Origin: Opitutia bacterium
GTDB lineage: Bacteria > Verrucomicrobiota > Verrucomicrobiia > Opitutales > Opitutaceae
Reading direction: 5' to 3'
DNA: 64,000 nt
NCBI GenBank assembly: GCA_016187945.1
Contig: JACPIT010000006.1
Location: 310,001-374,000 of the forward strand
Positions within the stretch are counted from its first letter, which is position 1, and every line of letters begins with the position of its first letter. Below are positions 1-60,678 of this stretch, piece after piece. The notes under the pieces were generated by a model. That model was not told where the DNA came from. It worked only from the letters and a program-made list of their open reading frames with translations, and made no database searches. The position numbers and the translations under genes are program-made.

Positions 1-63
1 CGCCTCGATGCGCAGGTGGCCTTCGATACGAGTTACAGGATCAACAACAATTCTTTCGCTCAT
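1..63 (-). CDS. [NiFe] hydrogenase large subunit, N-terminal fragment
   Basis: Only the first 21 codons are inside the window; the gene runs off the left edge. Read on the minus strand they give a Met start followed by VDPVTRIEGHLRIEA. That is the conserved N-terminal motif of [NiFe] hydrogenase large subunits, the subunit holding the Ni-Fe active site. The gene lies 20 bases downstream of the small subunit on the same strand, as expected for a small-large subunit operon. The rest, including the C-terminal processing site, cannot be seen. Confidence 0.93.
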   Translation of the reverse strand, partial: MSERIVVDPVTRIEGHLRIEA

Positions 64-83
64 GGTATGGCTTCTCCGCGGGG

Positions 84-1235
84 TTAGGATTTCGACTCGG
101 GGTTGTCCTTCTCAGCCTGCTCGGCGTTCTCGCCGGCATGCTCGCCGATCTCGTGACGTTTGCGGACGTTCGTCATGATGGCGTGGACGGCTGCGCCGCC
201 CGCGGAAGCCGCCAAGGCGGCGAGGCCGAGCTTGTCGGCAGTCTCTTCGATCCCAAACCCCGGGAAGGCCGGCACGCGTTGGTAGAACGGTCCGTTGTCC
301 CAGAAATTTGCCTCGGAGCAACCGATGCACGGGTGACCCGATTGAATCGGGAAACTCACGCCGCCGTTCCAGCGGATCGTGCCGCAGGCGTTGTAGGTCG
401 ATGGGCCGCGGCAGCCGACCTTGTAGAGGCAGTAGCCCTTGCGCGCGTTCTCGTCGTCGAAGCTTTCGACGAAGAGGCCGGCATCGTAGTTCGGGCGGCG
501 ATAGCACGTGTCGTGCACGCGGCGCGAGTAGAACGCCTTCGGGCGCCCGAGACTGTCGAGCTGCGGGATGCGGTCGAAGGTCAGCAAGTGCACGAGCACG
601 CCGGCCATGACCTCGGCGATCGGCGGGCAGCCCTGGACGTTGATGATCGGTTTTCCGCCGAGCACCTTGTGCACGGGCTTCGCGGAAGTCGGATTCGGCT
701 TCGCGGCCTGCACGCAGCCGGAGCTGGCGCAATTGCCCCAAGCGACGATCGCCTTCGCGTCCTTCGCGACTTCCTCGGCGATCTGGAGCGCCGTCTTGCC
801 GCCGATGCAACAATACACGCCGTCCTCGGCTGTCGGGATCGAGCCCTCGACGCAGAGCAGATACTCGCCTTTGAAGTTCGTGATCGTGTCGCGCAGGCTC
901 TTCTCCGCCTGATGGCCGGACGCCGCCATCAGCGTCTCGGAGTAATCGAGCGAAACTTTATCCAACAAAATATCCGCGACGATCGGGTGCGAGCTGCGGA
1001 TGAACGATTCGCTGCAGCACGTGCACTCCTGAAAATGCAGCCAGACGACGGGAATGCGTTTCTTCGTTTCGAGCGCCTTCGTCATCTGCGCCACGCCGGT
1101 TTGCTCCAGCCCGATACAGGCGCCCATCCAGGCGCAGAACTGCAGGAAGTCACGGCGGCTCACGCCGCGCGACAACATGTGTTCGTAGATCGTCTCGTCC
1201 TTCTTTTGGGGTTTCGTTGCCGATTCGATTTCCAT
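84..1235 (-). CDS. [NiFe] uptake hydrogenase small subunit, O2-tolerant type
   Basis: 383 aa electron-transfer subunit of a membrane-bound hydrogenase. A twin-arginine export signal (SRRDFLQF, residues 26-33) lies in a long leader, and a hydrophobic stretch near residues 336-354 could anchor the C-terminus. The Fe-S ligands are all present: proximal Cys71, 73, 74, 169, 174, 203; medial Cys284, 303, 306; distal His241, Cys244, 269, 275. These match the Ralstonia/E. coli Hyd-1 mature numbering with a constant offset of 54. The two extra ligands (Cys73 and Cys174) are the supernumerary cysteines of the [4Fe-3S] cluster that gives oxygen tolerance. The gene is followed by the large subunit and is divergent from the hyp genes. 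Confidence 0.95.
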   Translation of the reverse strand: MEIESATKPQKKDETIYEHMLSRGVSRRDFLQFCAWMGACIGLEQTGVAQMTKALETKKRIPVVWLHFQECTCCSESFIRSSHPIVADILLDKVSLDYSETLMAASGHQAEKSLRDTITNFKGEYLLCVEGSIPTAEDGVYCCIGGKTALQIAEEVAKDAKAIVAWGNCASSGCVQAAKPNPTSAKPVHKVLGGKPIINVQGCPPIAEVMAGVLVHLLTFDRIPQLDSLGRPKAFYSRRVHDTCYRRPNYDAGLFVESFDDENARKGYCLYKVGCRGPSTYNACGTIRWNGGVSFPIQSGHPCIGCSEANFWDNGPFYQRVPAFPGFGIEETADKLGLAALAASAGGAAVHAIMTNVRKRHEIGEHAGENAEQAEKDNPESKS

Positions 1236-1444
1236 GGTTGCGAAGCGGCGCGCTCGTCGTGGGTCGGGAACGTCGCGGTAGGGTTATTGGGGAAACTAGG
1301 ACAACCTTCTCCTGACTTGAGGCGCGCAGAGTAGCGGACGCGTCGCACCGCGCATATGCACCGCTTGGCAAAGGGTGCGCAGTGCTTGGCGAAAATTCGC
1401 TCTCCGCTCGACGCGCCTGCTCGCGCGGTCCAATGCATTTCACT

Positions 1445-1825
1445 ATGCACGAGGTCGGCATCATCGAGTCCGCGCTCGACGTAATCCGCCGCGAAGCGCG
1501 CGCTCACCACGCCACGCGAGTCACGCGGGTCGTCATGCGCATCGGCGCGATCTCCGGCGTGGACGCCGAGGCGCTGCGCTTCGGGTTCGAGGCCTGCACG
1601 CCCGGCTCCATCGCCGAGGGCGCCGCGCTCGAGATCGAAACCGTCCCCGCCCGCGCGCACTGCAAGGCCTGCGCCGCCGACTTCACGATCGAGAGCGGCT
1701 TCATTTTCCAATGCCCGCGCTGCGCCGCGTTCTCCGGCGACGTCCGCTCGGGCCGCGAGCTCGAGCTCGCGCGCCTCGAATTCGCCACCGCCCACGAAAA
1801 AGCCTCTCCGCACCATGTCCGCTGA
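1445..1825 (+). CDS. hypA: Hydrogenase nickel incorporation protein HypA
   Basis: 126 aa nickel metallochaperone that works with HypB to load nickel into the hydrogenase large subunit. The start was chosen at 1445 because the family needs Met-His-Glu at the N-terminus: His2 with the terminal amine is the Ni site. An ATG four codons upstream would bury it. The zinc site is visible as CKAC (Cys73, Cys76) and CPRC (Cys90, Cys93). Length is close to the usual 113-120 aa, with a short extra C-terminal tail. The end overlaps hypB by 11 bases, suggesting translational coupling. Confidence 0.93.
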   Translation: MHEVGIIESALDVIRREARAHHATRVTRVVMRIGAISGVDAEALRFGFEACTPGSIAEGAALEIETVPARAHCKACAADFTIESGFIFQCPRCAAFSGDVRSGRELELARLEFATAHEKASPHHVR

Positions 1826-2618
1826 AAATCCCGCCATTGCTGACGACGGCGTTCGTATCAGTCCGCTGAACGGCGCCGCCGTCTCCCCCACCCGCGCTCT
1901 CTCCGCCCCGCTGTCGGCGGAGATCAGCGCCGCTTTGCAGGCCAGTCCGAAAGGCGAAGTCCAGGTCCGCTCGCTCGACCTCAGCATCCCGCTGCTCGAG
2001 CGCAACGACATCCTCGCCGAGCGTAACCGCGGCTACTTCCTCGGCCGCGGACTCCTCGCGCTCAACCTCGTCTCCTCCCCCGGCGCCGGCAAAACGACGC
2101 TCCTCGAACGCACGCTCGACGAGTTCGGCAAGGACGTCCGCTGCGCCGTGCTCGTCGGCGATCTCGAAACCGACAACGACGGCCGCCGCCTCAACCGCCC
2201 GCACGCCTCCGTCGCGCAAATCACCACCGGCACCGTCTGCCACCTCGATGCCGGCATGATCGCCCGTGGCGTCGAAGCCCTCGACCTCACCGGCGCGCGC
2301 GTGCTCTTCATTGAGAACGTCGGCAATCTCGTCTGCCCCGCCTCCTTCGATCTCGGCGAACAAATCCGCGTCGTCCTCCTCTCCACCACCGAAGGCGAAG
2401 AGAAGCCGCTGAAGTATCCGCCGATCTTCAAATCCGCGCACGTCGTCCTCCTCACCAAAGTCGACGTCGCCGACGCCCTCGGCTTCAACCGCGCGCTCGC
2501 GATCGAAAACATCCGCAAGATCGCCCCGCAGGCGCAAATCATCGAAGTCTCCTCCCGCACCGGCGAAGGCCTCGCGCAATGGTATGCCTACCTGCGCGCG
2601 CGTTTGCCGAAACAGTAG
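1815..2618 (+). CDS. hypB: Hydrogenase nickel incorporation GTPase HypB
   Basis: 267 aa SIMIBI-class GTPase that drives nickel delivery to the hydrogenase. The P-loop SSPGAGKTT is at residues 87-95, the metal-site pair Cys142-His143 lies in GTVCHLDAG, and IENVGNLVCPA (Cys174) and LLTKVD supply the switch region and base recognition. The N-terminal CxxCGC high-affinity Ni motif and any His-rich stretch are absent. The first 50 residues are instead a low-complexity Ala/Ser/Pro leader, so this is the minimal HypB type. The TAG stop is the first three bases of a GTAGGGCCGGC palindrome. Confidence 0.94.
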   Translation: MSAENPAIADDGVRISPLNGAAVSPTRALSAPLSAEISAALQASPKGEVQVRSLDLSIPLLERNDILAERNRGYFLGRGLLALNLVSSPGAGKTTLLERTLDEFGKDVRCAVLVGDLETDNDGRRLNRPHASVAQITTGTVCHLDAGMIARGVEALDLTGARVLFIENVGNLVCPASFDLGEQIRVVLLSTTEGEEKPLKYPPIFKSAHVVLLTKVDVADALGFNRALAIENIRKIAPQAQIIEVSSRTGEGLAQWYAYLRARLPKQ

Positions 2619-3010
2619 GGCCGGCTTCAGCCGGCCTAAAAAACTCCCGCCGCAGTCCGCGCGTCCATTCTCCCGTGCACTCTTCCCCACCTGCCATTCT
2701 GAGCGAAGCGAAGAATCCGCGGCCACGCACGCGGTGCCGCGCCCGTCGGTCGGCATCGTTGGTAGGGCGCGACCGCTGGGCGCGCCGGGAGTGCGTCACA
2801 GCGTGCCAAGCGGCCGAGGCCACGCCCGCGGCACCCATAGTCCAAAACCCACCCGCCGCCTCGTTCTCGTAATCGTAATCTTAATCGTTCTCTCCGCCCG
2901 CCCACCGCGACCTGAGCGCTCCAAACCGAGAGAACGATTACGAGTAAGATTACGAGAACGACAAAACCCCTTCCGCCCTCAGCCCTCTGTCCTCAGTCCC
3001 CACCTCCCCC
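2619..3010. other. Gene-free gap hypB-hypF filled with dispersed repeats
   Basis: No coding signal is seen. The gap opens with the palindrome GGCCGGC-TTCA-GCCGGCC (2619-2636), fused to the hypB stop. Around 2696-2718 is a copy of the widespread CATTCTGAGCGAAGCGAAGAAT-type repeat. Between 2862 and 2962 two arms of about 35-40 bases (GTTCTCGTAATC.. and ..GATTACGAGAAC) form a long imperfect inverted repeat that could fold into an extended hairpin between hypB and hypF. Confidence 0.7.
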
Positions 3011-5320
3011 ATGCCCACCACGCCCCCGCTCACCGACACGCTGCTCCGCGTCCGCGGCACGGTGCAAGGCGTGGGCTTCCGGCCGTTCGTCCATCGCGTC
3101 GCCAACGAACTCCACGTCCACGGCTGGGTGCGCAACGACGCCGAAGGCGTCCTCATCCGCGCCCGCGGCGACGCGACGCAACTCGCCGCGCTCGTCGACG
3201 CGCTCCAACATCACGCCCCGCCCGCCGCCCGCGTCGCCTCCGTTGAGCGCCTCGATCCGCCCGCCAACGAGCAGCCCGCCGGCGCGCTTTTCACCATTTC
3301 CGAAACCGACACGGGCCGCGGCACCGCGCCGAGCGCCACCACGCCGCCCGACCTCGCGCTCTGCGCCGATTGCGAGCGCGAGCTGCTCGACCCGACCGAC
3401 CGCCGCCACCTCTACCCGTTCATCAACTGCACGCAGTGCGGCCCGCGCTATTCGCTGATCGAGCAACTCCCCTACGACCGCCCGCGCACGACCATGCGCG
3501 CGTTCCGCATGTGCCCGACCTGCGAACGCGAATACCGCGACCCGCTCGACCGCCGCTTCCACGCCGAGCCCAACGCCTGCCCCGTCTGCGGCCCGCAACT
3601 CTGCTTCACCGACGGCGCCGGCACCCGACTCGCTGAGCGGCGCGACGCTATCAACGCCGCGGCCACCGCCCTCCGCCGCGGCGAAATCGTCGCCGTGAAA
3701 GGCCTCGGCGGCTTTCACCTGATGTGCGACGCGTCGAACGACACCGCCGTCGCCGAACTCCGCCGCCGCAAACACCGCGAAGAAAAACCGCTCGCGGTGA
3801 TGTTCCCCCACCTCGCTTCGCTCTACGCCTGCGCCGACGTCCCGGCTTCCGCGCAAAGCCTCCTCACCTCCCCCGAAGCGCCCATCGTTCTCGTCCGCCG
3901 TCTCGCCGGCGCGCCGCTCGCCTATAGCATCGCGCCTGACAACCCCTGGATCGGCGCCCTCCTCCCTTACACGCCGCTGCACGTGCTGCTGCTCGGCACT
4001 TTCGGCGGTCCGCTCGTCGCCACCAGCGCGAACCTCTCCGAGGAACCGCTCTGCACCGACAACGCCGAGGCCCGCGAACGTCTCGCCGGCATCGCCGATC
4101 TCCACCTCGCGCACGACCGCGTCATCGCGCGCCCCGTCGACGATTCCGTCGTTCGCCTCTCGCGCACGGGCCAGCCGATCCTCCTCCGTCGCGCCCGCGG
4201 CCACGCGCCGCGTCCGCTGCGGCTGCCGGGCGAATTGCACGAGACGACGCTCTGCGTCGGCGGCCAGATGAAGAACACTATCGCCGTCGCCTCCGGCGAT
4301 CAACTCGTCCTCAGCCCGCACCTCGGCGATCTCGGCAACGCCGCCACGCAAACCGTCTTCGAGCACACCATCGCCACGCTCAGCGAACTCTACGCCGCGC
4401 GTCCGCAACTCGTCGTCCACGACAAGCATCCCGACTACGCGTCGACGCACTTCGCTGGCCGCACCGGCCTCCCGCAGCTCGCCGTGCAACACCACCTCGC
4501 GCACGTGCTCGCGTGCCTCCTCGAGCACGAGCACGTCGCCGACAACGTCCTCGGCATTTCCTGGGACGGCACCGGCTACGGCGAAGACGGCACGGTCTGG
4601 GGCGGCGAGTTCATCCTCCTCGAAAAGAGCCGCGCCACGCGCTTCGCGCGCCTGCGGCCGTTCCGCCTCGTCGGCGGCGAGGCCGCGGTGAAGGACGCGC
4701 GCCGCGTCGCCCTCGGACTCGGCCACGAGATGGACCTCTTCGCGCCGCTCTGCGCGCGATTCCATTTTACCGCGAACGAGCAGGCCAACCTCCACCAGAT
4801 GCTCGTGCGCGGCCTGAATTCCCCGCTCTGCTCCAGCGGCGGTCGCCTCTTCGACGGCGTCAGCGCGCTGCTCGGCCTCTGTATGCGCAACAGCTTCGAA
4901 GGCCAGGCGCCGCTCTGCCTCGAAGCCGCCGCCGCACGCGCGACCGCCGGCCGCGGCGCATTGCCGTTCGACATCGTGCGCGCCGCCACGCCCGGCGCGA
5001 TGCTCGACGTCGATTGGGCGCCCGCGATCTCGCAACTCCTGCGCGACCCGCGCAGCCCCGACGAGATCGCCGCCGATTTTCACCGCGGCCTCGCGCGCGC
5101 CATGGTCGCCGTCGCCACCGAAGCGGGCGTCGGCACCGTCGCGCTCACCGGCGGCTGTTTTCAAAACGCCCTGCTGCACGACCTCGCGAGCGAGGCGCTC
5201 GGCAACGCGGGCTTCAAAGTCCTCACGCATCGCCGTCTCTCCCCCAACGACAACTCCATCGCCGCCGGCCAGGCGCTCGCGGCGCTCTGGGGCCTCACCT
5301 CCGTCGACCTCCCGCCATGA
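3011..5320 (+). CDS. hypF: Carbamoyltransferase HypF
   Basis: 769 aa enzyme that makes the carbamoyl group used by HypE for the cyanide ligands of the hydrogenase iron. Domains in order: acylphosphatase-like (about 10-98, GTVQGVGFRPFVHR at 16-29); double zinc finger with four CxxC pairs (Cys118/121, 140/143, 168/171, 190/193); YrdC-like (about 205-385); and a C-terminal Kae1/TobZ-like carbamoyltransferase containing QHHLAH and SWDGTGYG. Length is normal for the family. The stop overlaps a 26-codon ORF by ATGA. It is third in the hypABFCD order. Confidence 0.95.
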   Translation: MPTTPPLTDTLLRVRGTVQGVGFRPFVHRVANELHVHGWVRNDAEGVLIRARGDATQLAALVDALQHHAPPAARVASVERLDPPANEQPAGALFTISETDTGRGTAPSATTPPDLALCADCERELLDPTDRRHLYPFINCTQCGPRYSLIEQLPYDRPRTTMRAFRMCPTCEREYRDPLDRRFHAEPNACPVCGPQLCFTDGAGTRLAERRDAINAAATALRRGEIVAVKGLGGFHLMCDASNDTAVAELRRRKHREEKPLAVMFPHLASLYACADVPASAQSLLTSPEAPIVLVRRLAGAPLAYSIAPDNPWIGALLPYTPLHVLLLGTFGGPLVATSANLSEEPLCTDNAEARERLAGIADLHLAHDRVIARPVDDSVVRLSRTGQPILLRRARGHAPRPLRLPGELHETTLCVGGQMKNTIAVASGDQLVLSPHLGDLGNAATQTVFEHTIATLSELYAARPQLVVHDKHPDYASTHFAGRTGLPQLAVQHHLAHVLACLLEHEHVADNVLGISWDGTGYGEDGTVWGGEFILLEKSRATRFARLRPFRLVGGEAAVKDARRVALGLGHEMDLFAPLCARFHFTANEQANLHQMLVRGLNSPLCSSGGRLFDGVSALLGLCMRNSFEGQAPLCLEAAAARATAGRGALPFDIVRAATPGAMLDVDWAPAISQLLRDPRSPDEIAADFHRGLARAMVAVATEAGVGTVALTGGCFQNALLHDLASEALGNAGFKVLTHRRLSPNDNSIAAGQALAALWGLTSVDLPP

Positions 5321-7965: not shown

Positions 7966-9603
7966 TTAGTTCTCGTCCTTCAATGGAGGCGTCGGCAAGA
8001 GCGGCAATCCGAGCTCCCGGAGAAACGCATTGTGCTTCGCCGCGGCGGCGCGGACCGATTGCTCGAGTTCCACGAGCCGCGCGTGCGTCGCCGCCAGATC
8101 GATCTCTTCCTCCGCCACCGCCGTGCTGATGTAGCGCGAGATGTTCAGGTTGAAGCCCTCTGCCGTGATCTTCTCCATCGAGACGCGCTTCGAATACCGT
8201 TCTTCCTCTCGGCGATCGCGATAGGCCGAGACGATTTTGTCGATATGCTCGTCGAGAAGCACGTTCTGGCGTTTGCCCTTCTCGAAGTGCTCGGCGGCGT
8301 TGATGAACAGCACGTCGTCGGGCTTCTTGCATTTCTTGAGGACGAGGATGCAGACGGGAATGCCCGTGGAATAAAACAGGTTCGCGGGCAAACCGATGAC
8401 GGTGTCGATGTGGCCGTCTTGGAGGAGCTTCGTGCGGATGCGTTCCTCGGCACCGCCACGGAAGAGCACGCCGTGCGGCAGGATGATGGCCATGACACCC
8501 TGATCCTTGAGGTAGTGGAAGCCGTGGAGGAGAAAGGCGAAGTCGGCGGCGGACTTGGGAGCGAGGCCATGGTTTTTGAAACGCACGTCGTCGGCCATGT
8601 CGTCCTTCGGCTCCCAGCGCAGGCTGAAGGGCGGATTGGCGACGATGGCGTCGAACTTGGGCATCTTGGCCGGATTGGTCTCCCGCAGCATATCCCAATC
8701 GTTGGTGAGCGTGTCGCCGTGATAGATTTCGAACTCCGTGTCCTTCACCCCGTGCAGCAGCATGTTCATGCGCGCGAGATTGTAGGTCGTGATGTTTTTC
8801 TCCTGCCCGCGAATCTTGCCGATGGTGCCGCCCTGCTTTTTGAGCTGCTGACGGACGTTGAGCAGGAGCGAGCCGGAGCCGCAGGCGAAGTCGAAGACGC
8901 TGCCGAGGTGTTTCACCGGGCCGGTATTCGGCTCCTGGCTGTCGAGCGTGACGATCCGCGAGAGGATGGTGGAGATTTGCTGCGGAGTGTAGAACTCGCC
9001 TGCTTTCTTGCCGGAACCAGCGGCGAACTGGCCGATGAGGTATTCGTAGGCGTCGCCGAGCGCGTCGATGTCGGTGGAAAACTCCTTCAGCCCTTCGGCG
9101 ATCTTCTTGATGATGCCGCAGAGCTTCTTGTTCTTCTCCGGCTGGCTCCGACCGAGCTTTTCCGAGTAGAGATTGATCTCCGAGAACAGCCCTTGGAACG
9201 TGCTCTGAAAGGATTCGTTTTCGATGTAGTCGAAACCGTCCTTGAGCGTCTCCAGCAGGTCGTCGCTCTCGCTGCGGGCGAGACTGGCGATGCTGGCCCA
9301 CAGGTGGCGCGGCTGGATGACGTAATGCACCTTGCGCCGCATCTGCTTCTCGAAATCGACGACGTCACCGGGATTGTTCGCATACCAGATCGCGAGCGGC
9401 ACGCGGGGATCGTCGGGCCCGAACTTGGGGTAATCGCCGCCCAGTTCCTTCTTCGCGGCGACCTCGTAGTTGTCGGAGAGGTAGCGCAGAAAGAGGAAGG
9501 CCAGCATGTAGTCGCGGAAATCGTCCGCGTTCATCGCGCCGCGGAGCTGGTCGGCGATGGCCCACAGGGTTTTGCCGAGGCGTTGTTGGTCGGTGGCGGT
9601 CAT
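7966..9603 (-). CDS. hsdM: Type I restriction-modification methyltransferase HsdM
   Basis: 545 aa N6-adenine DNA methyltransferase subunit. An N-terminal HsdM domain (about 8-150) precedes the methylase core, with the SAM-binding motif FDFACGSGSLLL (about 237-248) and the catalytic NPPF (323-326). FYTPQQI just before motif I is typical. Its start overlaps the stop of the RhuM-like gene by ATGA, so it is coupled to the genes before it. With hsdS and hsdR it would form the type I complex. The gene order R-S-(RAYT)-(rhuM)-M is unusual because M normally precedes or adjoins S. Confidence 0.95.
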   Translation of the reverse strand: MTATDQQRLGKTLWAIADQLRGAMNADDFRDYMLAFLFLRYLSDNYEVAAKKELGGDYPKFGPDDPRVPLAIWYANNPGDVVDFEKQMRRKVHYVIQPRHLWASIASLARSESDDLLETLKDGFDYIENESFQSTFQGLFSEINLYSEKLGRSQPEKNKKLCGIIKKIAEGLKEFSTDIDALGDAYEYLIGQFAAGSGKKAGEFYTPQQISTILSRIVTLDSQEPNTGPVKHLGSVFDFACGSGSLLLNVRQQLKKQGGTIGKIRGQEKNITTYNLARMNMLLHGVKDTEFEIYHGDTLTNDWDMLRETNPAKMPKFDAIVANPPFSLRWEPKDDMADDVRFKNHGLAPKSAADFAFLLHGFHYLKDQGVMAIILPHGVLFRGGAEERIRTKLLQDGHIDTVIGLPANLFYSTGIPVCILVLKKCKKPDDVLFINAAEHFEKGKRQNVLLDEHIDKIVSAYRDRREEERYSKRVSMEKITAEGFNLNISRYISTAVAEEEIDLAATHARLVELEQSVRAAAAKHNAFLRELGLPLLPTPPLKDEN

Positions 9604-10603
9604 TCGGGAGAATCAGGCTTTTGGGGGCGGCGCTTGAGTTTCGCCTCGATGGATTTCAGCTCGGCTTCGTCGGACTGGTCGGCGGCGAGGGCTTCCTGTT
9701 TTTTGCGGCGCGAGTCGAAGTCGAGGTAAAGGGCGCTCGTGGACGCCTCCATCTGCTCGTGGCTGATGCCGCCGGCGCCGGCGAGGAGCGGGAATCCGTT
9801 GGCGGTGATGATCTGGTCGATGTTTTCCCTCCAGAATCTCATGCGCGTCTCCTGGCGGTTCTTGGCGCGCAGTTCGGCGGTTTCGAGGAAGATGACGACG
9901 AGGCGGTTGAGGGTGTCGATTTCGTCCTCGGTGAGGTAGTTCTTGGCGACGAGGATGTCGGTCTTGCGGACCTTGTCGCCCTTCCACGCGAGCAGGCCGA
10001 AGTGCGCATCAGCGGGGTTGGCGCGGGCCTTGATAAGTTCGGCCGCGGTCTGGCGAGTGACGGCATAGAGCAGAACATTCTGGACGATGGCGAAAAACAG
10101 TTGGGTGGTCTGATCGGTCTTGTCGTAATCGGTGCTGAGGGCGAAGAGCTCGCGGACCTTCTGGTAAAAGCGTTTCTCCGAGGCGCGGATGTCGCGGATG
10201 CGTGCGAGCATCTCGTCGAAGTGGTCCGGGCGTCCGTCGGGGTTTTTGAGCCGCTCGTCGTCCATCGCGAAGCCCTTGAGCAGATATTCCTTGAGAACAG
10301 TCGAGGCCCAGCGGCGGAACTGGACGCCGCGCGGCGAGCGGACGCGGTAGCCGACGGCGAGGATCGCATCGAGGTTGTAGATTTTGGTGAGGTAGCCCTT
10401 GCCGTCGGCGGCAGTCGTCAAGGATTCCTTGACAACTGAACCCTCCCTCAACTCCCCGTCCTCGAAAATGTTTTGAAGATGGAGGGAGATGTTCTGCTTC
10501 GTGGTGGCGAAGAGGTCGGCCGTCTCCGACTGGGTGAGCCAGACGGTGTTTTCGTCCGCTCGGAGCTGGATGCGGCTCTTGCCGTCTTCAGTAGTGTAGA
10601 GGA

Positions 10604-10610
<7 letters not shown>
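9600..10610 (-). CDS. RhuM family protein
   Basis: 336 aa protein recognised as the virulence-RhuM family from its N-terminus (TEDGKSRIQLRADENTVWLTQ, DLFATTKQNISLHLQNIF) and the core YNLDAILAVGYRVRSPRGVQFRRWA. The family is named from a Salmonella pathogenicity-island gene. Its biochemical role is not established, but it is often found inside type I restriction loci. The N-terminal third resembles a DNA-binding module of the Bro-N/KilA type. It is coupled on both sides: a 7-base overlap with the transposase-like gene upstream and ATGA overlap with hsdM downstream. Confidence 0.85.
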
Positions 10611-11340
<730 letters not shown>

Positions 11341-11344
<4 letters not shown>

Positions 11345-12681
11345 GTGGTGGCGGCCTCGGGCGACGGGAAGAGCTGCTGGAGGAGGCCTTGCTTGTGGGT
11401 CTGGAGGGCGGCGAGCCGGTCGCTTTGGGCGGCGATCAGGTCGTCGAGCGAAGAGAGACAGGTGGCGATGCGGAGTTGCTCGGGAAACGCAGGGACGGAA
11501 ACGACTAGTTCCTTGCGGAAGGTGGTTGGATTGATGTTCGCCTGGCTGATGCTCGGCTTAGCGAGAGATTTGATTTTCGCCTGATACAGTGGCGTGTTCA
11601 GCATGAAGTTGCAGAACGACGGATCGAGTCGCTGCTTTTTCAGCCGATACGTGACGATGTAGGACGCGGTTAGGCACTCGGACTTGAGGCGAAAGAGAGA
11701 GATTTTCCCAACGAGAGCGGGGCTGTTGGTTCTATTCAGAAGGATATCGCCGTCCTCCAGCCGGAAGGACTCAAACGATTCACGATCGAGATCGATGTAG
11801 ACCAAAGTCGTGAAATCTAGCCTGCCGTCAGCCATGTTGCCCATGCGCAGAACAGGATACTGGCCTTGGGGTGCGGTTGAACTTGATGTTCCGTAGAAAG
11901 ACTTCGCCACGAATTCATCGAACGGATTCTCCTCCCATTCAGGGGCGGAGTGGAACTCGGGGAAGCGGAGGCGGGGGAGGGTTTCGCCCTCGCGGGGGAA
12001 GAGCTGCTGCATGAGCCCTTTTTTGTGGGCCTTGAGTGCGTCGAGTTTCTGGCTTTCGGCTCCGATCAGCTCGTCCAGCGTGCTCAGGCACTCGGCGATT
12101 TTTTGCTGTTCGAGAAATCGTCGAGGGACGCGAATCGGGAACGACAAGAACGACTCGGCTTGGATTCGCTTGGCCTTCCGCCCTCCGTCGGCGATCTCTC
12201 CAAATTTCTCGTAGAATGAGGGACGTTTAACGTATTCCAGCAGGAAGTTTGGATGCAGCTCGCTCGAGATGTCGAAGCACGGGAGATCTACGGTGGACTC
12301 AAGGCCGTCGAGGCTGGTCGGGATAACGCCGAACGCCTGATTCAGAAAATCCAGTTTGCTGTAGATGAACTGCCCCGCCTTACGGCGGTAATACTGGGTG
12401 TTTTCGCTGCCGCTGAGTGATTCGATTTTTTCAAACACGCCTTTCCCCCAGAGCTTCACAGTGAGCTTCCGAGCAACATCGCCAGAACTACCCCTGACGC
12501 GGCTCTCTTCGAGAAAATCGCCGATCAGTTTTTCAGCCCAATCCGTCCCGTCCCGGAATTCAGGAAACCGCCGCTTGGGCGTGAGAGCGGGGCGATCTGG
12601 GAGCGCCGACGTCCTCGTCGGCTTTGGTTCGGAGCGTGCCGGCGGGGACGCCGGCGTTCCCAGGCGAGTTCGTCGCGTCAT
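11341..12681 (-). CDS. hsdS: Type I restriction specificity subunit HsdS
   Basis: 446 aa with two target-recognition domains. Each is followed by the conserved helical spacer: LSTLDELIGAESQKLDALKA (first) and LSSLDDLIAAQSDRLAALQT (second), both ending in QQLFP. RFPEF motifs begin each half. Its ATG overlaps the hsdR stop (ATGA). Residues about 8-28 (GTPASPPARSEPKPTRTSALP) are not HsdS-like but the translation of a palindromic element (12597-12663) inserted between the start codon and the normal N-terminus. The recognition domains are AT-richer than the neighbouring genes, as usual for exchanged specificity domains. Confidence 0.94.
12597..12663 (-). repeat. REP-like palindromic element, copy 3 (in hsdS)
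   Basis: 67 bp with outer inverted ends CTGGGAGCGCCG/CGGCGTTCCCAG (one mismatch in 12) and inner palindromes GCCGACGTCCTCGTCGGC and GCCGGCGGGGACGCCGGC. It sits in frame a few codons after the hsdS start. Confidence 0.88.
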
Positions 12682-15600
12682 GATTCGTAAGCGTTGAGGC
12701 CGGAGATGTCGCGGCCGGCGGCGCGCTTCTTGAGCAGCGGCACGAGGTCTTCCATCAACGCGAGCTCGGCGACGCGGCGGGTCTTCCAGTTGAGGCCGAG
12801 TGGGGCGAGGAGTTCGGTGAGCTGCTCGCCGTCGAAGACCAGACGCTGCAGGATGGCATCCACGAACGCCTGGAGGCGCTCGACCGGCAGGGCGTGTTTT
12901 TGCGCGACGGCGGCGAGCGCGTCGGCGTGGAATTTTTCCCGGAAGCGGCGGTAGCCGGCCTCGATCTCCGTCTTGTCGAGACCTTCGCCGGCCTGGAGGC
13001 CGCGGACGTAGGCGGTGATGATCTCGCGCTCGTCGCTGAAGTTGGCGTTGGCTTCGATGAGGCCGATGAGCTGTTCGCGGGTGATCGGACGCTGGTCGGG
13101 CGCCGGGCTGGAGAAGCGGGCGCAGAGGCCCATGATGTAATCGAAGTCGATGAGCGCGGAGGCGAAGAGGACGAACTCGAAATCGAGCGCGGCGACCACT
13201 GCGGAGGTGCCGGCGGGGACGCCGGCGTTCCCAGCGTCCTGCAGCTTCTTGAGTTCGTGCGCGGTGGTGAGATAGACGCCGCGGTAGGCGTTGAGCGTGT
13301 CGGGCGGGAGGAGTTCGTCGATGGCGGCGAGGTCCGCGGGCGCGACATCGAGGTATTGGTCGAGCTGGGTCTTGAGGCGCTGGACCTCCTTGAAGGACTT
13401 GACGAACTCGGCGCGCGCCTCGTCGCCGCGCAGCGCGGGCACGGACTCGGGGGCCGGCGGGAGGCCGTGGGAGCGGAGGAATTTTTCGAGGTTGCCGACG
13501 GCGACCTTGAGTTTTCCGACGACGACCTCGGCGGAATCGACGAGCCAGATCTTGCGCGCGTCGGCGCCTCCGCCCACGCCGGAGAACATCACGATGGCCT
13601 CGTCGACGGCCGTCTGCTGCCCGCGGAAGTCGAGGATGTGGCCGTAGGGCTTGGTGTCGTTGAGCACGCGGTTGGTGCGGGAGAAGGCCTGGATGAGGCC
13701 GTGGTGCTTGAGGGTCTTGTCGACGTAGAGCGTGTTGAGGTATTTCGAGTCGAAGCCGGTGAGGAGCATGTCGACGACGATCGTAACATCGATCTTCTCG
13801 GCGCCGCGGCGCGGGAGGTCGCTGTTCGGGAAGCGCTGGTCTTTGATGCGCTGCTGGACGTCCTGGTAGTAGGCGTCGAACTCGCCGACGGAATGGTTGG
13901 TGCCGTAGCGGGCGTTGTAGGCGGCGATGATGGCCGTGAGGGAGACGCGCTTTGCGTCGGGCTCGTGCTGGTTGTTTTCCTGCTCCGTGGGCAGATCCTC
14001 CTGGAGCTGCTCGATGTCACGGTCGTTGTCGTCTTTGTTGGCCGGCGGCACGGGCGGAGAGAAGACGCAGGCGATCTTGAGCGGGACGAATTCGGGGTCG
14101 GCAGCGCGCCGCTCCTCCTGCACCGCGGCGAAGAGCACGTGGTAGGCGATGGCGTCGTCGATGGAGGCGGTGGCGAAGAGGGCGTTGAAGCGGCGGGAGG
14201 CGGTGACGGCGTCGTGGCTGGCGAGGATTTTCTCGACGATCTTGCGCTTCCGCGCGTCCTCGCCCGCCTGGCTGGTGTCCTCGCCCTCGGGGCGAAAGTA
14301 GTCGACGTGGAATTTGAGGACGTTCCGGTCGTCGATGGCGTGCGTGATCGTGTAGCGGTGCAGCTCGTGCGGGAAGATGTCGGCGGTGGTGCGGAGGGTC
14401 TTGGTCTCGCCGGAGACGCGGAACTGCGTGGCGTTTTGCTCGAAGATAGGCGTGCCGGTGAAGCCGAAGAGCTGGGAGTTCGGGAAGAATTCTTTGATGG
14501 TCTCGTGGTTGCCGCCGAACTGGGAACGGTGGCACTCGTCGAAAATGAGGACGACGCGCTTGTCGCGCAGCGGCTCGAGGCGCTCGCGGTAGGTTTCGAG
14601 ACCGCGTTGCTCGCGCTGGCGATTGCGCTTACTCGTCTCGTCGAGGGCGAGGCCGAGCTTCTGGATGGTGGTGACGATGACCTTGTCGGCTTTGTCGTCG
14701 GAGAGGAGGCGGCGGACGAGAGTGGCGGTGTTGGTGTTGGCCTCGACGCAGCCCTCCTGGAAGCGGTTGAACTCCTCGCGCGTCTGGCGATCGAGGTCCT
14801 TGCGATCGACGACGAAGAGGCACTTGTCGATGGCGGGATTGTCGCGGAGCAGCGTGGAAGCCTTGAAGGAGGTGAGGGTCTTGCCGCTGCCGGTGGTGTG
14901 CCAGATGTAGCCGTTGCCGCTGCGCTGCTCGATGCTGTCGACGATGGCTTGGACGGCGTAGATCTGATACGGGCGCATCATGAGCAGCTTTTGCTCGCTC
15001 TGGATGAGCACCATGTAGCGGCTGATCAGGCGGCCGAGTTCGCACTTTTGCAAAACAAGATCGGCGAAGACGTCGAGATGGGAGACGGGGTGGTTGTCGC
15101 GTTTGGTGAACTCGTAGACGGGGAGAAACTGCTCGTTCGCGTCGAAGGCGAAGTGCCGGGCGTTGTTGTTTGCGAAGTAGAAGGTCTCGGTGCGGTTCGT
15201 GACGATGAAGATCTGGACGAAGCAGAGGAGCGTGCGGGTGTAGCCGTTGCCGGGGTCGGCCTTGTAGTCGACGATCTGCTGCATCGCGCGGCGCGGGCTC
15301 ACGTCGAGCGTCTTGAGCTCCACTTGGGCGACGGGGACGCCGTTGATGAGGAGGAGGACGTCGTAGCGGTGGTGGCTGTAGTCGGTGTTGATGCGGAGCT
15401 GGTGGACGACCTCGAAGTCGTTTTTGCACCAGTCGCGGATGTTGACCAACGTGTAGGAAAGCGGGGTGCCGTCGTCGCGGGTGAAGTCGTTTTTCCCGCA
15501 GAGGCGGACGGCGTTTTTGAAGACGTCGGGCGAGACGAGGTCGTCGAGCAGGCGGGCGAACTCGGCGTCGGTCAGGCGGACGCGATTGAGGGCCTCGAAC

Positions 15601-15764
15601 TTCTGGCGGAAGTTGGCTTCGAGCGCCGCGCGATCGCGGATGTCGGCGCGATAGGTGTATTTGAGATCGACGAGCTTGGAGATGAACGCGTCTTCGATGT
15701 CCTGCTCGCGCACCGCTGACGGGACGCGGTCCGGGTCTTGCTGGTAGATGGGCTCGTGAGACAT
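12678..15764 (-). CDS. hsdR: Type I restriction endonuclease HsdR
   Basis: 1028 aa DNA translocase and nuclease subunit. The start at 15764 (MSHEPIYQQ) is preferred; the open frame upstream only translates repeat sequence. Nuclease domain: D135 in HHRYDVLLLINGVPVAQVELK with E149 and K151 (PD-(D/E)xK). Helicase: TTGSGKT (about 290-296), VVDRKDL, DECH (409-412), GFTGTP. Residues about 843-852 (AGNAGVPAGT) are encoded by a half palindromic element (13207-13234) between otherwise normal helical segments. It is the first gene of the minus-strand island, with ATGA coupling to hsdS. Confidence 0.95.
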   Translation of the reverse strand: MSHEPIYQQDPDRVPSAVREQDIEDAFISKLVDLKYTYRADIRDRAALEANFRQKFEALNRVRLTDAEFARLLDDLVSPDVFKNAVRLCGKNDFTRDDGTPLSYTLVNIRDWCKNDFEVVHQLRINTDYSHHRYDVLLLINGVPVAQVELKTLDVSPRRAMQQIVDYKADPGNGYTRTLLCFVQIFIVTNRTETFYFANNNARHFAFDANEQFLPVYEFTKRDNHPVSHLDVFADLVLQKCELGRLISRYMVLIQSEQKLLMMRPYQIYAVQAIVDSIEQRSGNGYIWHTTGSGKTLTSFKASTLLRDNPAIDKCLFVVDRKDLDRQTREEFNRFQEGCVEANTNTATLVRRLLSDDKADKVIVTTIQKLGLALDETSKRNRQREQRGLETYRERLEPLRDKRVVLIFDECHRSQFGGNHETIKEFFPNSQLFGFTGTPIFEQNATQFRVSGETKTLRTTADIFPHELHRYTITHAIDDRNVLKFHVDYFRPEGEDTSQAGEDARKRKIVEKILASHDAVTASRRFNALFATASIDDAIAYHVLFAAVQEERRAADPEFVPLKIACVFSPPVPPANKDDNDRDIEQLQEDLPTEQENNQHEPDAKRVSLTAIIAAYNARYGTNHSVGEFDAYYQDVQQRIKDQRFPNSDLPRRGAEKIDVTIVVDMLLTGFDSKYLNTLYVDKTLKHHGLIQAFSRTNRVLNDTKPYGHILDFRGQQTAVDEAIVMFSGVGGGADARKIWLVDSAEVVVGKLKVAVGNLEKFLRSHGLPPAPESVPALRGDEARAEFVKSFKEVQRLKTQLDQYLDVAPADLAAIDELLPPDTLNAYRGVYLTTAHELKKLQDAGNAGVPAGTSAVVAALDFEFVLFASALIDFDYIMGLCARFSSPAPDQRPITREQLIGLIEANANFSDEREIITAYVRGLQAGEGLDKTEIEAGYRRFREKFHADALAAVAQKHALPVERLQAFVDAILQRLVFDGEQLTELLAPLGLNWKTRRVAELALMEDLVPLLKKRAAGRDISGLNAYES
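13207..13234 (-). repeat. Half copy of the REP-like element inside hsdR
   Basis: GTGCCGGCGGGGACGCCGGC followed by GTTCCCAG: the right-hand palindrome and terminal arm of the element found at 12597-12663, without the left-hand palindrome. It is translated in frame in HsdR as AGNAGVPAGT. Confidence 0.8.
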
Positions 15765-16083
15765 GAACGACAGGGCGATAGACGTGGACGTTGCCGGCGG
15801 GCCCGTGAATCGCCAAGCAGATTGCTCCGCGGATGCTCCCTGCCCCGCCGGTCGGAGCAAGACCGATCTCGGGCGAGGCTCGAAGCAGCTCGCGCGCGAC
15901 CGACTTTCTAACTGCGGCGCCGCGCAGGTGGTCGCCGCTGTCCCAGCGGCGACACATCTTCCGGAAGCGCCATCACCTTCAGCGCCTATAGGCGCCCAAC
16001 ACACGCTCTCGAAGCCCCGCGTCGTTCTCGTGTTTTTCGTGGCCAATCTGCCTTGAACAAAGCCGGTCAGAGACCGGCTCTAC
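15765..16083. other. Gene-free region upstream of hsdR, behind hypE
   Basis: About 320 bases without a gene. It must contain the hsdR promoter (leftward), but I cannot point to clear -35/-10 boxes. It holds the right direct repeat of the island (15926-16054) and the palindrome AGCCGGTC-AGA-GACCGGCT with CTAC (16061-16083), which directly abuts the hypE stop codon (16084-16086). Confidence 0.6.
15926..16054. repeat. Right direct repeat flanking the restriction island
   Basis: AGGTGGTCGCCGCTGTCCCAGC, then CATCACC, GCGCCTATAGGCGCC, and TGGCCAATCTGCCTTGA, in the same order and orientation as 7447-7581. Shorter relatives without the CTATAG palindrome are at 21277-21310 and 55055-55082. Confidence 0.75.
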
Positions 16084-56670: not shown

Positions 56671-58095
<1,425 letters not shown>

Positions 58096-58190
58096 GCTCA
58101 AGACCTCTAACTTGCCATTCGCCGCCTGAAACGACGTGACAAAAACCAAGCCCTGACGCATCCACTCCGGCCGCCTACCCTGTTTGAGCC

Positions 58191-59978
58191 ATGAAGCACC
58201 TGCACTACGTCGAGATAGAGAACTTCAAGCGCTACGGAAAGAAGCAGCGTATCGATCTCGACCACCCAGCGGTTCTAATCGGTCCCAACAACTGCGGCAA
58301 GACCAGCGTGCTCCAAGCGATCGCGCTATGGTCCATCGGACTGCGAACGTGGAGAGCTGAGTCCGAAAATTCGAAAGCCGAAAAAAAGACCGGAAGACCA
58401 CTGAATCGCCTCAGCATTCTTGCCGTTCCAGTGCCCAAGACCCGCCACTTTTGGAACAACTTCAGAGTCTCCGAAAGACCGCTGGTAATCACTCTAGGCG
58501 TCGATGTCAGCGGTCAACCGAAGCCGTTTTCGATGATTTTCCGGCACCACGCCAGTGACGAGTTGGTGTATTGCCAGCCAGATCCGGATTCGATGCGCGA
58601 TTACACCGTGTTCGCAGCCGCCGCAGACTTGGAAGTCTCGTTGCTCTATCCGATGTCTGGTATTTCGGCAGATGAGGCAATTATCCAGCCCAAGCGCATA
58701 GACTATTTCATGGGGCGAGGGAGCACCGCCGAGGTGTTGCGCAATATCTGTCTGCAAATCCACCAGACTGCACCTTCCGATTGGCGAGAGGTGGCGGGCC
58801 TCATGCGTCGTTTGTTCCATGTCGAGCTCGGCGCTCCGGTAGAAAACGAGAAAGGCGCGGTCGATCTTGGCTACAGCCAACCTGGCGCCTCCGGCGAAAT
58901 GGATCTCAGCCTCTCTGGGCGCGGATTCCAGCAGATGTTGCTCATCTTCGCCCATCTCTTCCTGCACAAAGGCAGCGTGCTACTCGTAGACGAGCCTGAT
59001 GCGCACTTGGAAATCCTGCGGCAACAGCAAGTATTCACCCTCCTGCGCGACATAGCTCGGCGCAATCGCTGCCAAGTCGTGCTTGTGACCCACTCCGAGG
59101 TCGTGCTCGCGGAGGCGCTAGAAACCAATCTTACGCTGATTCTCGACGGCAAGCCGGACAATCTCGCGGGTCGGACGGAAATCAAAAATGCGCTGAAACA
59201 CTTCGGTGCCGAACACTATGTCCGCGCCCGGGAAACGGGACACGTGCTTTATGTAGAGGGAAGCACAGACGTGGACATGCTCCGGGCCTTCGCACGGAAG
59301 CTCAACCACTCCGCAGCTGAATTGATCGAGGACGGTGCCAAACTCAACGTATACTATCTTCAAGACAACTACCCTGAAGCAGAGCGCCCCCCGGAAGCAG
59401 AGCTAGAACGCGTCGAAGGCGGCTACGGTCTTAAACCGGAGGACCATTTCCATGCGTTGCGACGTATGCTTCCCGCGTTACGAGGGCTCGTGATTCAAGA
59501 TAACGATGGGCGCAACCGTTTAGATGGACAATTCGGGGAGCTCAAAAAACTCTACTGGAGACGGTATGAAGCCGAAAACTACTTCATCACTCCTGAACTG
59601 CTCTTGGCAGAAGGCCACAGGGCGCTCTCAGGTGCCGAACTCTTCTCCCACCAACCTGCCGAGGTGCTGCGATCACTTCTTTTGACCAAGGTGTTTGACG
59701 GTTCCGAGGAGGACATGGCGAACTACGAACGCGCAGACGAATCCACGCGCAAAACGATCTGGCGCGCGCAAACACTCCAGAGGAAATTGAGCGTGCTGGC
59801 CGAAGAGTATTTTCGCGATCTCGCGCGTGCTACAGGCACAGCGATGGCCTTCACCAAAGGCGGCCTACACGATATGGTCGCGCGCTGCGATGTCGCGGAA
59901 CTAGATGGCGAGGTTAAGGAAAAATTGGACGCCATCGCAGCGTTGGTCGGCTCCAATGGATCGACCGCCACACATTGA
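58191..59978 (+). CDS. OLD-family ATPase with TOPRIM nuclease domain (probable anti-phage gene)
   Basis: 595 aa. ABC-type ATPase: Walker A GPNNCGKTS (31-39), signature LSLSGRGFQQML (239-250), Walker B VLLVDEPDAHLE (263-274), H-loop VTHSE (299-303). A TOPRIM domain follows: VLYVEGSTDVDML (Glu356) and VIQDNDGRN (Asp437, Asp439). The arrangement is that of class 1 OLD nucleases (overcoming lysogenization defect). No UvrD/GajB partner or reverse transcriptase is adjacent. GC content and codon use are lower than in cysS and trmO on either side, which suggests transfer. The substrate is not shown. Confidence 0.88.
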   Translation: MKHLHYVEIENFKRYGKKQRIDLDHPAVLIGPNNCGKTSVLQAIALWSIGLRTWRAESENSKAEKKTGRPLNRLSILAVPVPKTRHFWNNFRVSERPLVITLGVDVSGQPKPFSMIFRHHASDELVYCQPDPDSMRDYTVFAAAADLEVSLLYPMSGISADEAIIQPKRIDYFMGRGSTAEVLRNICLQIHQTAPSDWREVAGLMRRLFHVELGAPVENEKGAVDLGYSQPGASGEMDLSLSGRGFQQMLLIFAHLFLHKGSVLLVDEPDAHLEILRQQQVFTLLRDIARRNRCQVVLVTHSEVVLAEALETNLTLILDGKPDNLAGRTEIKNALKHFGAEHYVRARETGHVLYVEGSTDVDMLRAFARKLNHSAAELIEDGAKLNVYYLQDNYPEAERPPEAELERVEGGYGLKPEDHFHALRRMLPALRGLVIQDNDGRNRLDGQFGELKKLYWRRYEAENYFITPELLLAEGHRALSGAELFSHQPAEVLRSLLLTKVFDGSEEDMANYERADESTRKTIWRAQTLQRKLSVLAEEYFRDLARATGTAMAFTKGGLHDMVARCDVAELDGEVKEKLDAIAALVGSNGSTATH

Positions 59979-60003
59979 CCGCTCCCTCTGGCAGTCCTTT
60001 CGC

Positions 60004-60678
60004 CTACACCCGCTGCGCCTCCACCACCTCGATTCTCCCGCCACCGGAGCGCCAGCGGATGTTCCAATCGGCCACCGTCATGCCATACACCCGATCCGCA
60101 TCGGCGGCGTGATACGCCGGCTGCAAATCCAGCGCGAGCAATTGCCGCACGAGAGTGGCAACGCCTTCGGGCAATCGCGCCGCGATCTCCGGCGGAATCA
60201 TGACGTCATTCGCCGTGCGCACCGCCGGCGCATCCTTTGACCAATCGGAGCGCGCATCACGCTTCGCCTCGCACCACGGCAGATACGGTTTCACGTCGTA
60301 AACCGGCGTGCCGTCCACCGCGTCGATGCCCGCGACCCGCAGCGCGCCGGGCTCGATCGCGCGCAGTTCGACGAGCGAGAGCCCAAGGCCGTTCGGTCGC
60401 GTGGGCGCACGCGAGGCGAAGACACCGACGCGTTCGTTGCCGCCGAGTCGCGGTGGACGGACCGTCGCAGAGCCGTCCCACGGCGGGTTGCAGTGAAAAC
60501 CCGTGATGAGCCACACGTGCGAGAAATCCTCCAGCCCGCGCACGAACTCCGGCGCGGCGAACTCCGGCAAAAACTCCACCCGCCCCTCCGCCGCCGGCAC
60601 GAGGCCGGACTGGCGCGGCACGCCGAATTTTTCGGCGAAAGGCGTGCGGAGCACGGCGATGGGTTTGATTTCGGGCAC
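60004..60678 (-). CDS. trmO: tRNA (adenine-N6)-methyltransferase TrmO (TsaA domain)
   Basis: 224 aa SAM-dependent enzyme methylating t6A37 of tRNA-Thr. PIAVLRTPFAEKFGVPRQSG, GLEDFSHVWLITGFHCN, VGVFASRAPTRPNGLGLSLV and GTPVYDVKPYLPWCEAK form the TsaA barrel. The C-terminal part (about 150-224) is the usual tail ending DWNIRW..GGRIEVVEAQ. It precedes thrS divergently, a fitting neighbour since both concern tRNA-Thr. Confidence 0.9.
   Translation of the reverse strand: MPEIKPIAVLRTPFAEKFGVPRQSGLVPAAEGRVEFLPEFAAPEFVRGLEDFSHVWLITGFHCNPPWDGSATVRPPRLGGNERVGVFASRAPTRPNGLGLSLVELRAIEPGALRVAGIDAVDGTPVYDVKPYLPWCEAKRDARSDWSKDAPAVRTANDVMIPPEIAARLPEGVATLVRQLLALDLQPAYHAADADRVYGMTVADWNIRWRSGGGRIEVVEAQRV

Follow-up and report, generated by a model that had tools for sequence, protein, structure and literature searches.

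The question raised by this locus is what a single gene, encoding an ABC ATPase and a TOPRIM nuclease on one chain, does between cysS and trmO in the genome of an Opitutia bacterium (Verrucomicrobiota; assembly GCA_016187945.1). The stretch analysed, here called the window, comprises 64,000 nucleotides (contig JACPIT010000006.1, positions 310,001 to 374,000). An earlier note on this DNA had described the gene as a foreign, stand-alone OLD gene with no recognised partner, and had linked such genes to phage defence. Published work is cited below from excerpts of the papers named.

Acquisition of the gene between cysS and trmO

The ATPase-TOPRIM gene (Table 1) has a GC content of 0.57, compared with roughly 0.62-0.67 in the 1-kb windows around it, and its GC at third codon positions (0.651) is lower than that of cysS (0.867), trmO (0.813) and thrS (0.868). 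The coordinates agree exactly with those given in the earlier note, and the GC and GC3 values with its description of a lower-GC, foreign gene at this site.

Thirteen genomes of the same genus, including that of the window, were compared, and cysS was located in 12 of them. No copy of the ATPase-TOPRIM gene was found beside cysS in any of the 11 other congeners, for which 1.4-1.5 kb of cysS flanks were inspected. In five of these (L088, L089, L090, L091 and L097) trmO is next to cysS, and L088, whose CysS is 93% identical, represents a clean empty site; the cysS flanks of L095 contain none of the flanking genes looked for. Homology to the empty sites of L088-L091, as determined by blastn, ends at or just past the cysS stop and resumes at about position 60007, so that the insert consists of the gene with about 95 bp before it and 28 bp after it. 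No convincing att-like repeats were found around the insert (58040-60060), and a consensus search of 57900-60100 found no sigma-70 promoter. Among 56 other related genomes, 12 of which are the congeners, a relative at E<=1e-20 was found in only one, G010; this copy is 68% identical and is located on a 4.5-kb contig, the inspected part of which has no cysS, trmO or thrS match. The gene was therefore shown to have arrived in this species, where it is intact. The empty-site comparison proposed in the earlier note supports its view of the gene, and strict conservation across the family, named there in advance as the finding that would speak against it, was looked for and is absent.

Compared with L007, its nearest neighbour in the tree (74% identical), the gene has a dN of 0.19, a dS of 2.3 and a dN/dS of about 0.08, a ratio that gives no more than a sign of purifying selection because dS is near saturation. 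The comparison with L015 gave a dN/dS of 0.06 at a dS of 4.5, and dS was saturated in comparisons with L008, L013 and L045.

Several minor features of the cysS region were also observed. In L092, L093, L094, L096 and L098, thrS is next to cysS and no trmO match was found, indicating that trmO is variable at this site. In L090 (2880-3160) and L091 (2770-3050), about 45 bp of the 3' end of cysS are duplicated after the cysS stop, as seen by eye and by blastn; this duplication resembles the scar of an element integrating into a gene end. A small ORF in L089 (about 2990-3520), which by eye has the look of a REP-associated transposase, lies inside the same cysS-trmO gap as the window gene, which suggests a favoured insertion point.

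Table 1. Coordinates and strand of features in the window (nucleotide positions in the 64,000-nucleotide stretch; residue numbers refer to the 595-aa protein)
Feature	Position	Strand	Remarks
Type I R-M operon	7966-16046	-	ORF overlaps 4-7 bp; genome's only HSDR_N match; lacks the ATPase-TOPRIM gene
hsdM	7966-9603	-	window type I operon
rhuM	9600-10610	-	RhuM shares 47% identity with the L045 protein
Y1 transposase-family ORF	10604-11344	-	246 aa; built into window type I operon
hsdS	11341-12681	-	window type I operon
hsdR	12678-16046	-	HSDR_N; window type I operon
cysS	56671-58095	+	Pfam tRNA-synt_1e, E 1.3e-105; left neighbour of the ATPase-TOPRIM gene
Short leader	58096-58190	+	no counterpart in empty sites; homology with L088-L091 ends at or just past cysS stop
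ABC ATPase-TOPRIM gene	58191-59978	+	OLD/PARIS superfamily; ORF with ATG start, 595 aa; Pfam AAA_21/AAA_15
Walker A GPNNCGKT, residues 31-38	58281-58304	+	invariant or nearly so in 75-80 members
ABC signature region LSGRGFQQ, residues 241-248	58911-58934	+	G243, R244, G245 and Q248 invariant
Walker B VLLVDEPDAHLE, residues 263-274	58977-59012	+	D267-E268-P-D-A-H272 invariant
Switch histidine H301	59091-59093	+	invariant
C-terminal TOPRIM and helical part, residues 328-595	59172-59975	+	AriB-like predicted fold (AlphaFold2)
TOPRIM motif 1, E356-D360	59256-59270	+	E356, T359 and D360 invariant in 75
TOPRIM DxD, D437 and D439	59499-59507	+	invariant in 75
YEAENYF, residues 459-465	59565-59585	+	Y459, E460, E462, N463, Y464 and F465 invariant in 75
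Right edge of insert	59979-60006		blastn against L088-L091
trmO	60004-60678	-	TrmO_N, E 1.1e-41; right neighbour; thrS beyond

The ATPase and nuclease halves of the protein

The window protein has the plan of the OLD superfamily, an ABC ATPase with an H-switch followed by acidic TOPRIM residues on one chain. The motif residues of both halves are kept, invariant or nearly so, in 75-80 family members from many phyla, which bears out the claim of a complete ABC ATPase and TOPRIM active site. The ATPase half matches AAA_21 (E 2.2e-19, 71.1 bits) and AAA_15 (E 9.8e-19, 68.6 bits), both above the Pfam cut-offs and above the thresholds for PARIS of 27 and 32 bits, respectively, in an excerpt of PMC9122126. 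In structural comparisons of the ATPase fold, SMC heads, PtuA and AriA tie, with AriA among the top matches (8v46_B, Z 16.7); this half matches OLD, SMC and PtuA-like proteins without discriminating between them.

In the C-terminal half of the window protein, no significant Pfam or PADLOC model for TOPRIM or DUF4435 was found, and with no DUF4435 match the protein falls outside the PARIS criterion of more than 27 bits for this domain (PMC9122126). Over 75 members, the Pfam models DUF4435 (1/75, E 0.028) and OLD-like_TOPRIM (3/75, E 0.017) gave no convincing match. The TOPRIM assignment of this half is therefore based on the invariant motifs and the predicted fold. A [YFW]x(1-3)EN motif after DxD was found in all 75 family members, in 5 of 8 DUF4435 sequences and in 2 of 30 OLD-like TOPRIM sequences.

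The AlphaFold2 model of the C-terminal domain alone (pLDDT 88.1, pTM 0.84) is helical over its residues 134-264, a region that may be either an insertion or a C-terminal extension. The best fold matches of this domain were all TOPRIM nucleases. In VIA-align, which re-ranks Foldseek's list only, the PARIS chain 8ux9_A came first (Z 10.0, rmsd 4.5, 203 residues, 12% identity), and 8v46_D had a Z of 9.5; both chains are presumably AriB, in view of their length and because it is chain B that the ATPase half matches. Other TOPRIM domains scored lower, including those of Xanthomonas and Burkholderia OLD (Z 6.8-7.3), GajA (6.0), and Thermus scotoductus OLD and retron Eco2 (both 5.6). Foldseek itself gave weak matches for the domain, with OLD domains rather than AriB first (6njv, E 0.02 at best), and the best match for the whole chain was the class 1 OLD of T. 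scotoductus (6p74, E 6.3e-12).

Profile comparisons of the domain were mixed. The family domain profile matched eight DUF4435 (AriB) sequences with a probability of 77.6% (E 1.9e-5), which ranged from 18.5 to 93.6% when single sequences were left out and was lowest when L122 was dropped; with a set of seven DUF4435 sequences it reached 92.7% (E 4.4e-7), with VEG..D, DxD and YxxEN in register and a score of 55.3, compared with at most 17.1 in 30 column shuffles. Smaller DUF4435 subsets lost the signal (five unfused, 0.5%; three fused, 2.0%; single sequences, 0.2-5.0%). Against 30 OLD-like TOPRIM sequences the probability was 7.1%; it was 4.7% when only the 22 sequences with ordinary length were used and 1.2-6.5% in eight random draws of eight, and a set of 13 canonical OLD domains gave 37.2%. 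Full-length profiles preferred canonical OLD (13 proteins, 99.2%, E 1.2e-19; 22 proteins, 99.4%, E 1.6e-21), and the match to three fused AriAB-like proteins was weaker (95.7%, E 1e-8). Profile support for a likeness to AriB thus appears fragile. Taking the predicted fold into consideration, it can be proposed with moderate confidence that the C-terminal half is an AriB-like TOPRIM domain on a single chain. The term OLD-type used in the earlier note fits the full-length profiles, whereas the predicted fold of the nuclease is nearer to AriB than to the TOPRIM domains of class 1 or class 2 OLD.

An HMM search had been proposed in the earlier note. Among the 25 of 139 PADLOC matches listed, AriA was the best (77 bits), with NsnB (73 bits) close to it and fused AriAB at 55 bits, all aligning best over only part of the chain; the C-terminal half, as described above, has no significant TOPRIM or DUF4435 match. 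The NCBIfam matches (25 of 125 listed) were far under their cut-offs, and among the matches so listed no Pfam, PADLOC or NCBIfam model names the family. The PADLOC model for fused AriAB had no match in 240 genomes of the phylum, a result that is uninformative because the controls were also unmatched.

Distribution of the family and its linkage to type I R-M operons

A scan of GTDB species genomes identified 112 relatives, and the analysis was continued with the best 80 (L007-L086). As the scan was seeded by exact peptide patterns, these numbers are a lower bound and favour close relatives. The 80 relatives are about 48-73% identical to the window protein (48-69% for 74 aligned relatives), and their hosts belong to the Verrucomicrobiota, Pseudomonadota, Chlorobiota, Planctomycetota, Acidobacteriota, Myxococcota and others. 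The copy in L061 is incomplete and that in L050 is broken by a stop. No family match was found in the plasmid collection at E<=1e-30 or in the phage collection at E<=1e-10, and viral contigs contained no family member and six distant matches, five to approximately the ATPase half and one over 26 residues. Transport on phages or plasmids was rejected, no family member having been found in these three collections. Two Planctomycetaceae bins (L028 and L029) carry identical protein copies with the same neighbours. In L050, a UvrD-like helicase with ankyrin repeats is encoded (8-3103) just upstream of the stop-interrupted copy, a Gabija-like pairing that may be real or due to chance.

When the neighbouring ORFs of the 80 loci were clustered, the three commonest clusters were HsdR, HsdS and HsdM, as identified by Pfam in L045; in L046, Pfam also revealed an HsdR of a second type. 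Profiles of these hsd genes, built from the same 80 loci and searched in their flanks, found a strong hsd gene at 21 loci, representing type I R-M operons, and a weaker R-M neighbour at two more, L079 (HsdM-like, 1e-8) and L072 (Eco57I/ResIII). Another 33 copies are solitary, with at least 4 kb on each side and no hsd match, and 24 loci with less than 4 kb on a side were classed as undeterminable; short contigs could hide further links.

At all 21 linked loci, the closest hsd genes share the strand of the ATPase-TOPRIM gene; the additional hsdR of L046 is on the opposite strand. Twelve loci (L018, L019, L021, L031, L033, L045, L049, L051, L052, L055, L062 and L070) have hsdS upstream and hsdR downstream, sometimes with other ORFs intervening. 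The order is hsdR-gene-hsdM-hsdS in L046 and L080 and gene-hsdM-hsdS-hsdR in L077, and only a partial operon was found in L011, L053, L064, L076, L082 and L085. The gap after hsdS is 2-14 bp in L019, L031, L045, L049, L051, L053 and L055 (2 bp in L031, L049 and L053), and the stop of the family gene overlaps the next gene as ATGA in L045, L046, L070 and L082. By rough arithmetic (87 HSDR_N matches in about 147 Mb), proximity to an hsdR would be expected by chance at about 1.2% of loci, a rate that is a little low because it was drawn from the hosts of solitary copies; the 21 of 56 determinable loci represent an approximately 30-fold excess. The family was thus shown to be repeatedly linked to type I R-M operons. 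That the gene has no recognised partner, as had been claimed, is correct for the window copy, flanked by cysS and trmO, but not for the family, 21 of 80 members of which lie in such operons; "stand-alone OLD" describes the place of this copy in its genome and not its family.

In a quick tree, supported by SH-aLRT only, the 55 labelled rows (21 linked and 34 solitary, including the window) interleave, requiring at least 15 state changes by parsimony, and sister pairs of one linked and one solitary member were found in L045/L057, L051/L065 and L033/L040. The window protein groups with L007 (support 97) inside a 14-member group from the Verrucomicrobiota (support 100), which includes the linked L011 and L018, so that in this group too the gene is found both in and outside R-M operons.

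Solitary copies could guard type I R-M systems in trans, and an excess of such systems in their hosts was expected in that case. Of the 33 solitary hosts, 20 had an HSDR_N match at E<=1e-20, compared with 46 of 80 Burkholderiales genomes (at least three of which carry the ATPase-TOPRIM gene) and 17 of 61 genomes of the window's family, its own included. Beta-proteobacterial solitary hosts, assigned by record title in a set from which the Pseudomonadota host L036 was left out, showed no excess over the Burkholderiales (8/15 vs 46/80). In the Verrucomicrobiota, 5 of 7 solitary hosts compared with 17 of 61 genomes give a hint of an excess, although numbers are small and other families are involved. 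Dependence on type I R-M in trans is not supported by these counts. In 6 of the 33 solitary hosts, including the named isolates L027 and L058, HSDR_N was missing even at 1e-3; drafts among these may be incomplete, but the protein can probably persist without type I R-M.

No obligate partner was apparent beside the solitary copies, as no Pfam or PADLOC family occurred in more than 3 of 64 flanking ORFs. This screen covered one ORF per side of the 33 loci, with 2 of 66 sides omitted and six short nearest ORFs swapped for the next longer one. One of the 64 is a strong match to DpdF. Among ten flanking ORFs inspected singly, three had PADLOC matches, at L032, which adjoins Septu ptuA, and at L078, which adjoins a Mokosh-like/type III REase locus. 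The large neighbours of solitary copies include valS, metH, uvrA and alpha-2-macroglobulin genes.

The window contains a type I operon of its own, 42 kb from the ATPase-TOPRIM gene (Table 1). Its HsdR matched six of the linked HsdRs, in partial alignments with 24-26% identity, and thus is of another kind.

Possible functions and relation to known systems

The family unites components resembling those of PARIS with a genomic location resembling that of PrrC and RloC. PARIS (AriA and AriB, "class 4 OLD", sometimes fused) likewise consists of an OLD-type ABC ATPase and a TOPRIM nuclease; AriB is the nearest TOPRIM fold (Z 10.0) and AriA the best PADLOC match among those listed. Unlike PARIS, the window family consists of one chain, has no significant DUF4435 match and is found in type I operons at 21 of 80 loci. 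PARIS AriA has been reported to recognise the T7 anti-restriction protein Ocr, upon which AriB is released and tRNA-Lys is cut, and PrrC, encoded in a type IC locus, is unleashed once the phage T4 protein Stp inhibits the enzyme (PMC12707154, PMC12409363). PARIS counters anti-restriction, and both have been termed "RM guardian systems" (PMC12707154). PrrC and RloC share with the family an ABC ATPase and a C-terminal nuclease in type I hsd loci. RloC also occurs outside such loci: of 72 cases, 8 were located in a type I or III locus and 12 belonged to bacteria with neither (PMC2610378). The C-terminal domain of the window family differs in being TOPRIM-like and not an anticodon nuclease, for which no Pfam match was found. 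Gabija GajA (class 2) and retron OLD (class 3) have the same two-domain plan, but the window gene, between cysS and trmO, has neither a GajB-like helicase nor a reverse transcriptase beside it, and the GajA TOPRIM is a weaker fold match (Z 6.0).

OLD classes 1-3 are described in PMC10568477, and classes 1-5 with 11 uncharacterised clades (U1-U11) in PMC12796447. No description of the family was found in the literature searched. No OLD/TOPRIM gene between hsdS and hsdR was found in the titles and abstract starts searched or in the excerpts of PMC8713573 and PMC10030836, and reviews of ABC ATPases may cover such genes. The closest passages connect OLD-TOPRIM proteins to BREX (PMC12839542).

The reading that we favour, although we would place it slightly short of an even chance, is that the window protein is a single-chain, PARIS-like guard, whose ATPase senses phage infection or anti-restriction and whose TOPRIM domain cuts nucleic acid, perhaps tRNA, so that infection is aborted. 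The signal recognised by the ATPase head would come from the phage and would most plausibly be an anti-restriction protein, or else damage that it betrays, and this recognition would license the TOPRIM domain to cut. By analogy with AriB, the substrate would most likely be host tRNA, and cutting would halt the cell ahead of phage release. In type I R-M operons, the related proteins would serve as a backup for the restriction enzyme, and the solitary window copy would have to sense its trigger by itself. As its relatives are often found inside restriction clusters, the window gene probably encodes a last-resort anti-virus enzyme of a kind found both alone and together with restriction systems. 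This reading is favoured by the conserved motifs and low dN/dS, the empty sites and patchy occurrence, the same-strand linkage to type I R-M with its repeated switching, the fold match to AriB, and the two solitary copies (L032 and L078) adjoining other defence genes. Speaking against it are the DUF4435 model results, the fragile profile match to AriB, the better full-length match to canonical OLD, the order of the Foldseek matches, the lack of discrimination by the ATPase and the solitary hosts that have no HSDR_N match. The link to phage defence made in the earlier note is in this respect supported as very likely for the window gene, for which we infer the defence role itself as well as the trigger and the tRNA substrate.

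A wider proposal, made tentatively, is that one-gene, PARIS-like guards are widespread and repeatedly enter and leave type I operons of various layouts, translationally coupled to hsdS and hsdR inside them and self-sufficient outside, and have a TOPRIM tRNase as effector. Such a family would link two ways of protecting restriction, that of PARIS, which senses anti-restriction proteins freely, and that of PrrC, which is tied to its operon. Few cases are known of how bacteria detect that a phage has disabled their restriction enzymes (PrrC and PARIS), and the three sister pairs of linked and solitary copies allow a direct test of what such a guard responds to, be it the restriction enzyme, the inhibitor made by the phage or another cue.

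It is possible, though on the unlikely side, that the protein belongs with the stand-alone OLD nucleases, resembling class 1, and cuts DNA or answers RecBCD inhibition; R-M operons would then be convenient genomic shelters, as in the clustering of defence islands, with no functional tie to restriction. Class 1 proteins (P2 Old, T. scotoductus OLD and YbjD) are single-chain ATPase-TOPRIM proteins, and P2 Old has been reported, citing others, to cleave a tRNA of the host upon inhibition of RecBC (PMC13261556). The best whole-chain match (6p74, E 6.3e-12), the preference of the full-length profiles for canonical OLD (E 1.2e-19 and 1.6e-21), the 33 of 80 solitary loci and the finding that beta-proteobacterial solitary hosts have no excess of type I R-M (8/15 vs 46/80) are all consistent with this assignment. 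Against it, the tight, same-strand coupling to hsd genes in several layouts exceeds what clustering in islands would produce, and the TOPRIM domain matches T. scotoductus OLD weakly (Z 5.6) compared with AriB (Z 10.0). Moreover, the C-terminal domain is largely helical in the model, be it by insertion or by extension, and class 1 is said to lack a helical insertion in its TOPRIM domain (PMC12796447). The class 1 description of a single gene with no defence neighbours is true of the window gene and untrue of the 21 linked loci of its often R-M-linked family.

That the protein is an obligate regulator or subunit of a type I R-M enzyme, in the way that EcoprrI holds PrrC, and that the window copy lost its operon and persists as an inactive orphan, is improbable. 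The 21 linked loci would fit this model, as would the window operon, which holds the one HSDR_N match of the genome 42 kb away and lacks the gene. However, the motif residues are intact and dN/dS is about 0.08, 33 copies are solitary, six of them in genomes with no HSDR_N match (including isolates L027 and L058), and the HsdR of the window shares only about 24-26% identity with the six linked ones that it matched.

A non-defence cellular role, for which archaeal Cran1, acting in cell-cycle progression (PMC12796447), is the one precedent, is highly improbable given the foreign composition of the gene, its presence in just one of the 56 other genomes compared and its absence beside cysS in 11 of 11 congeners.
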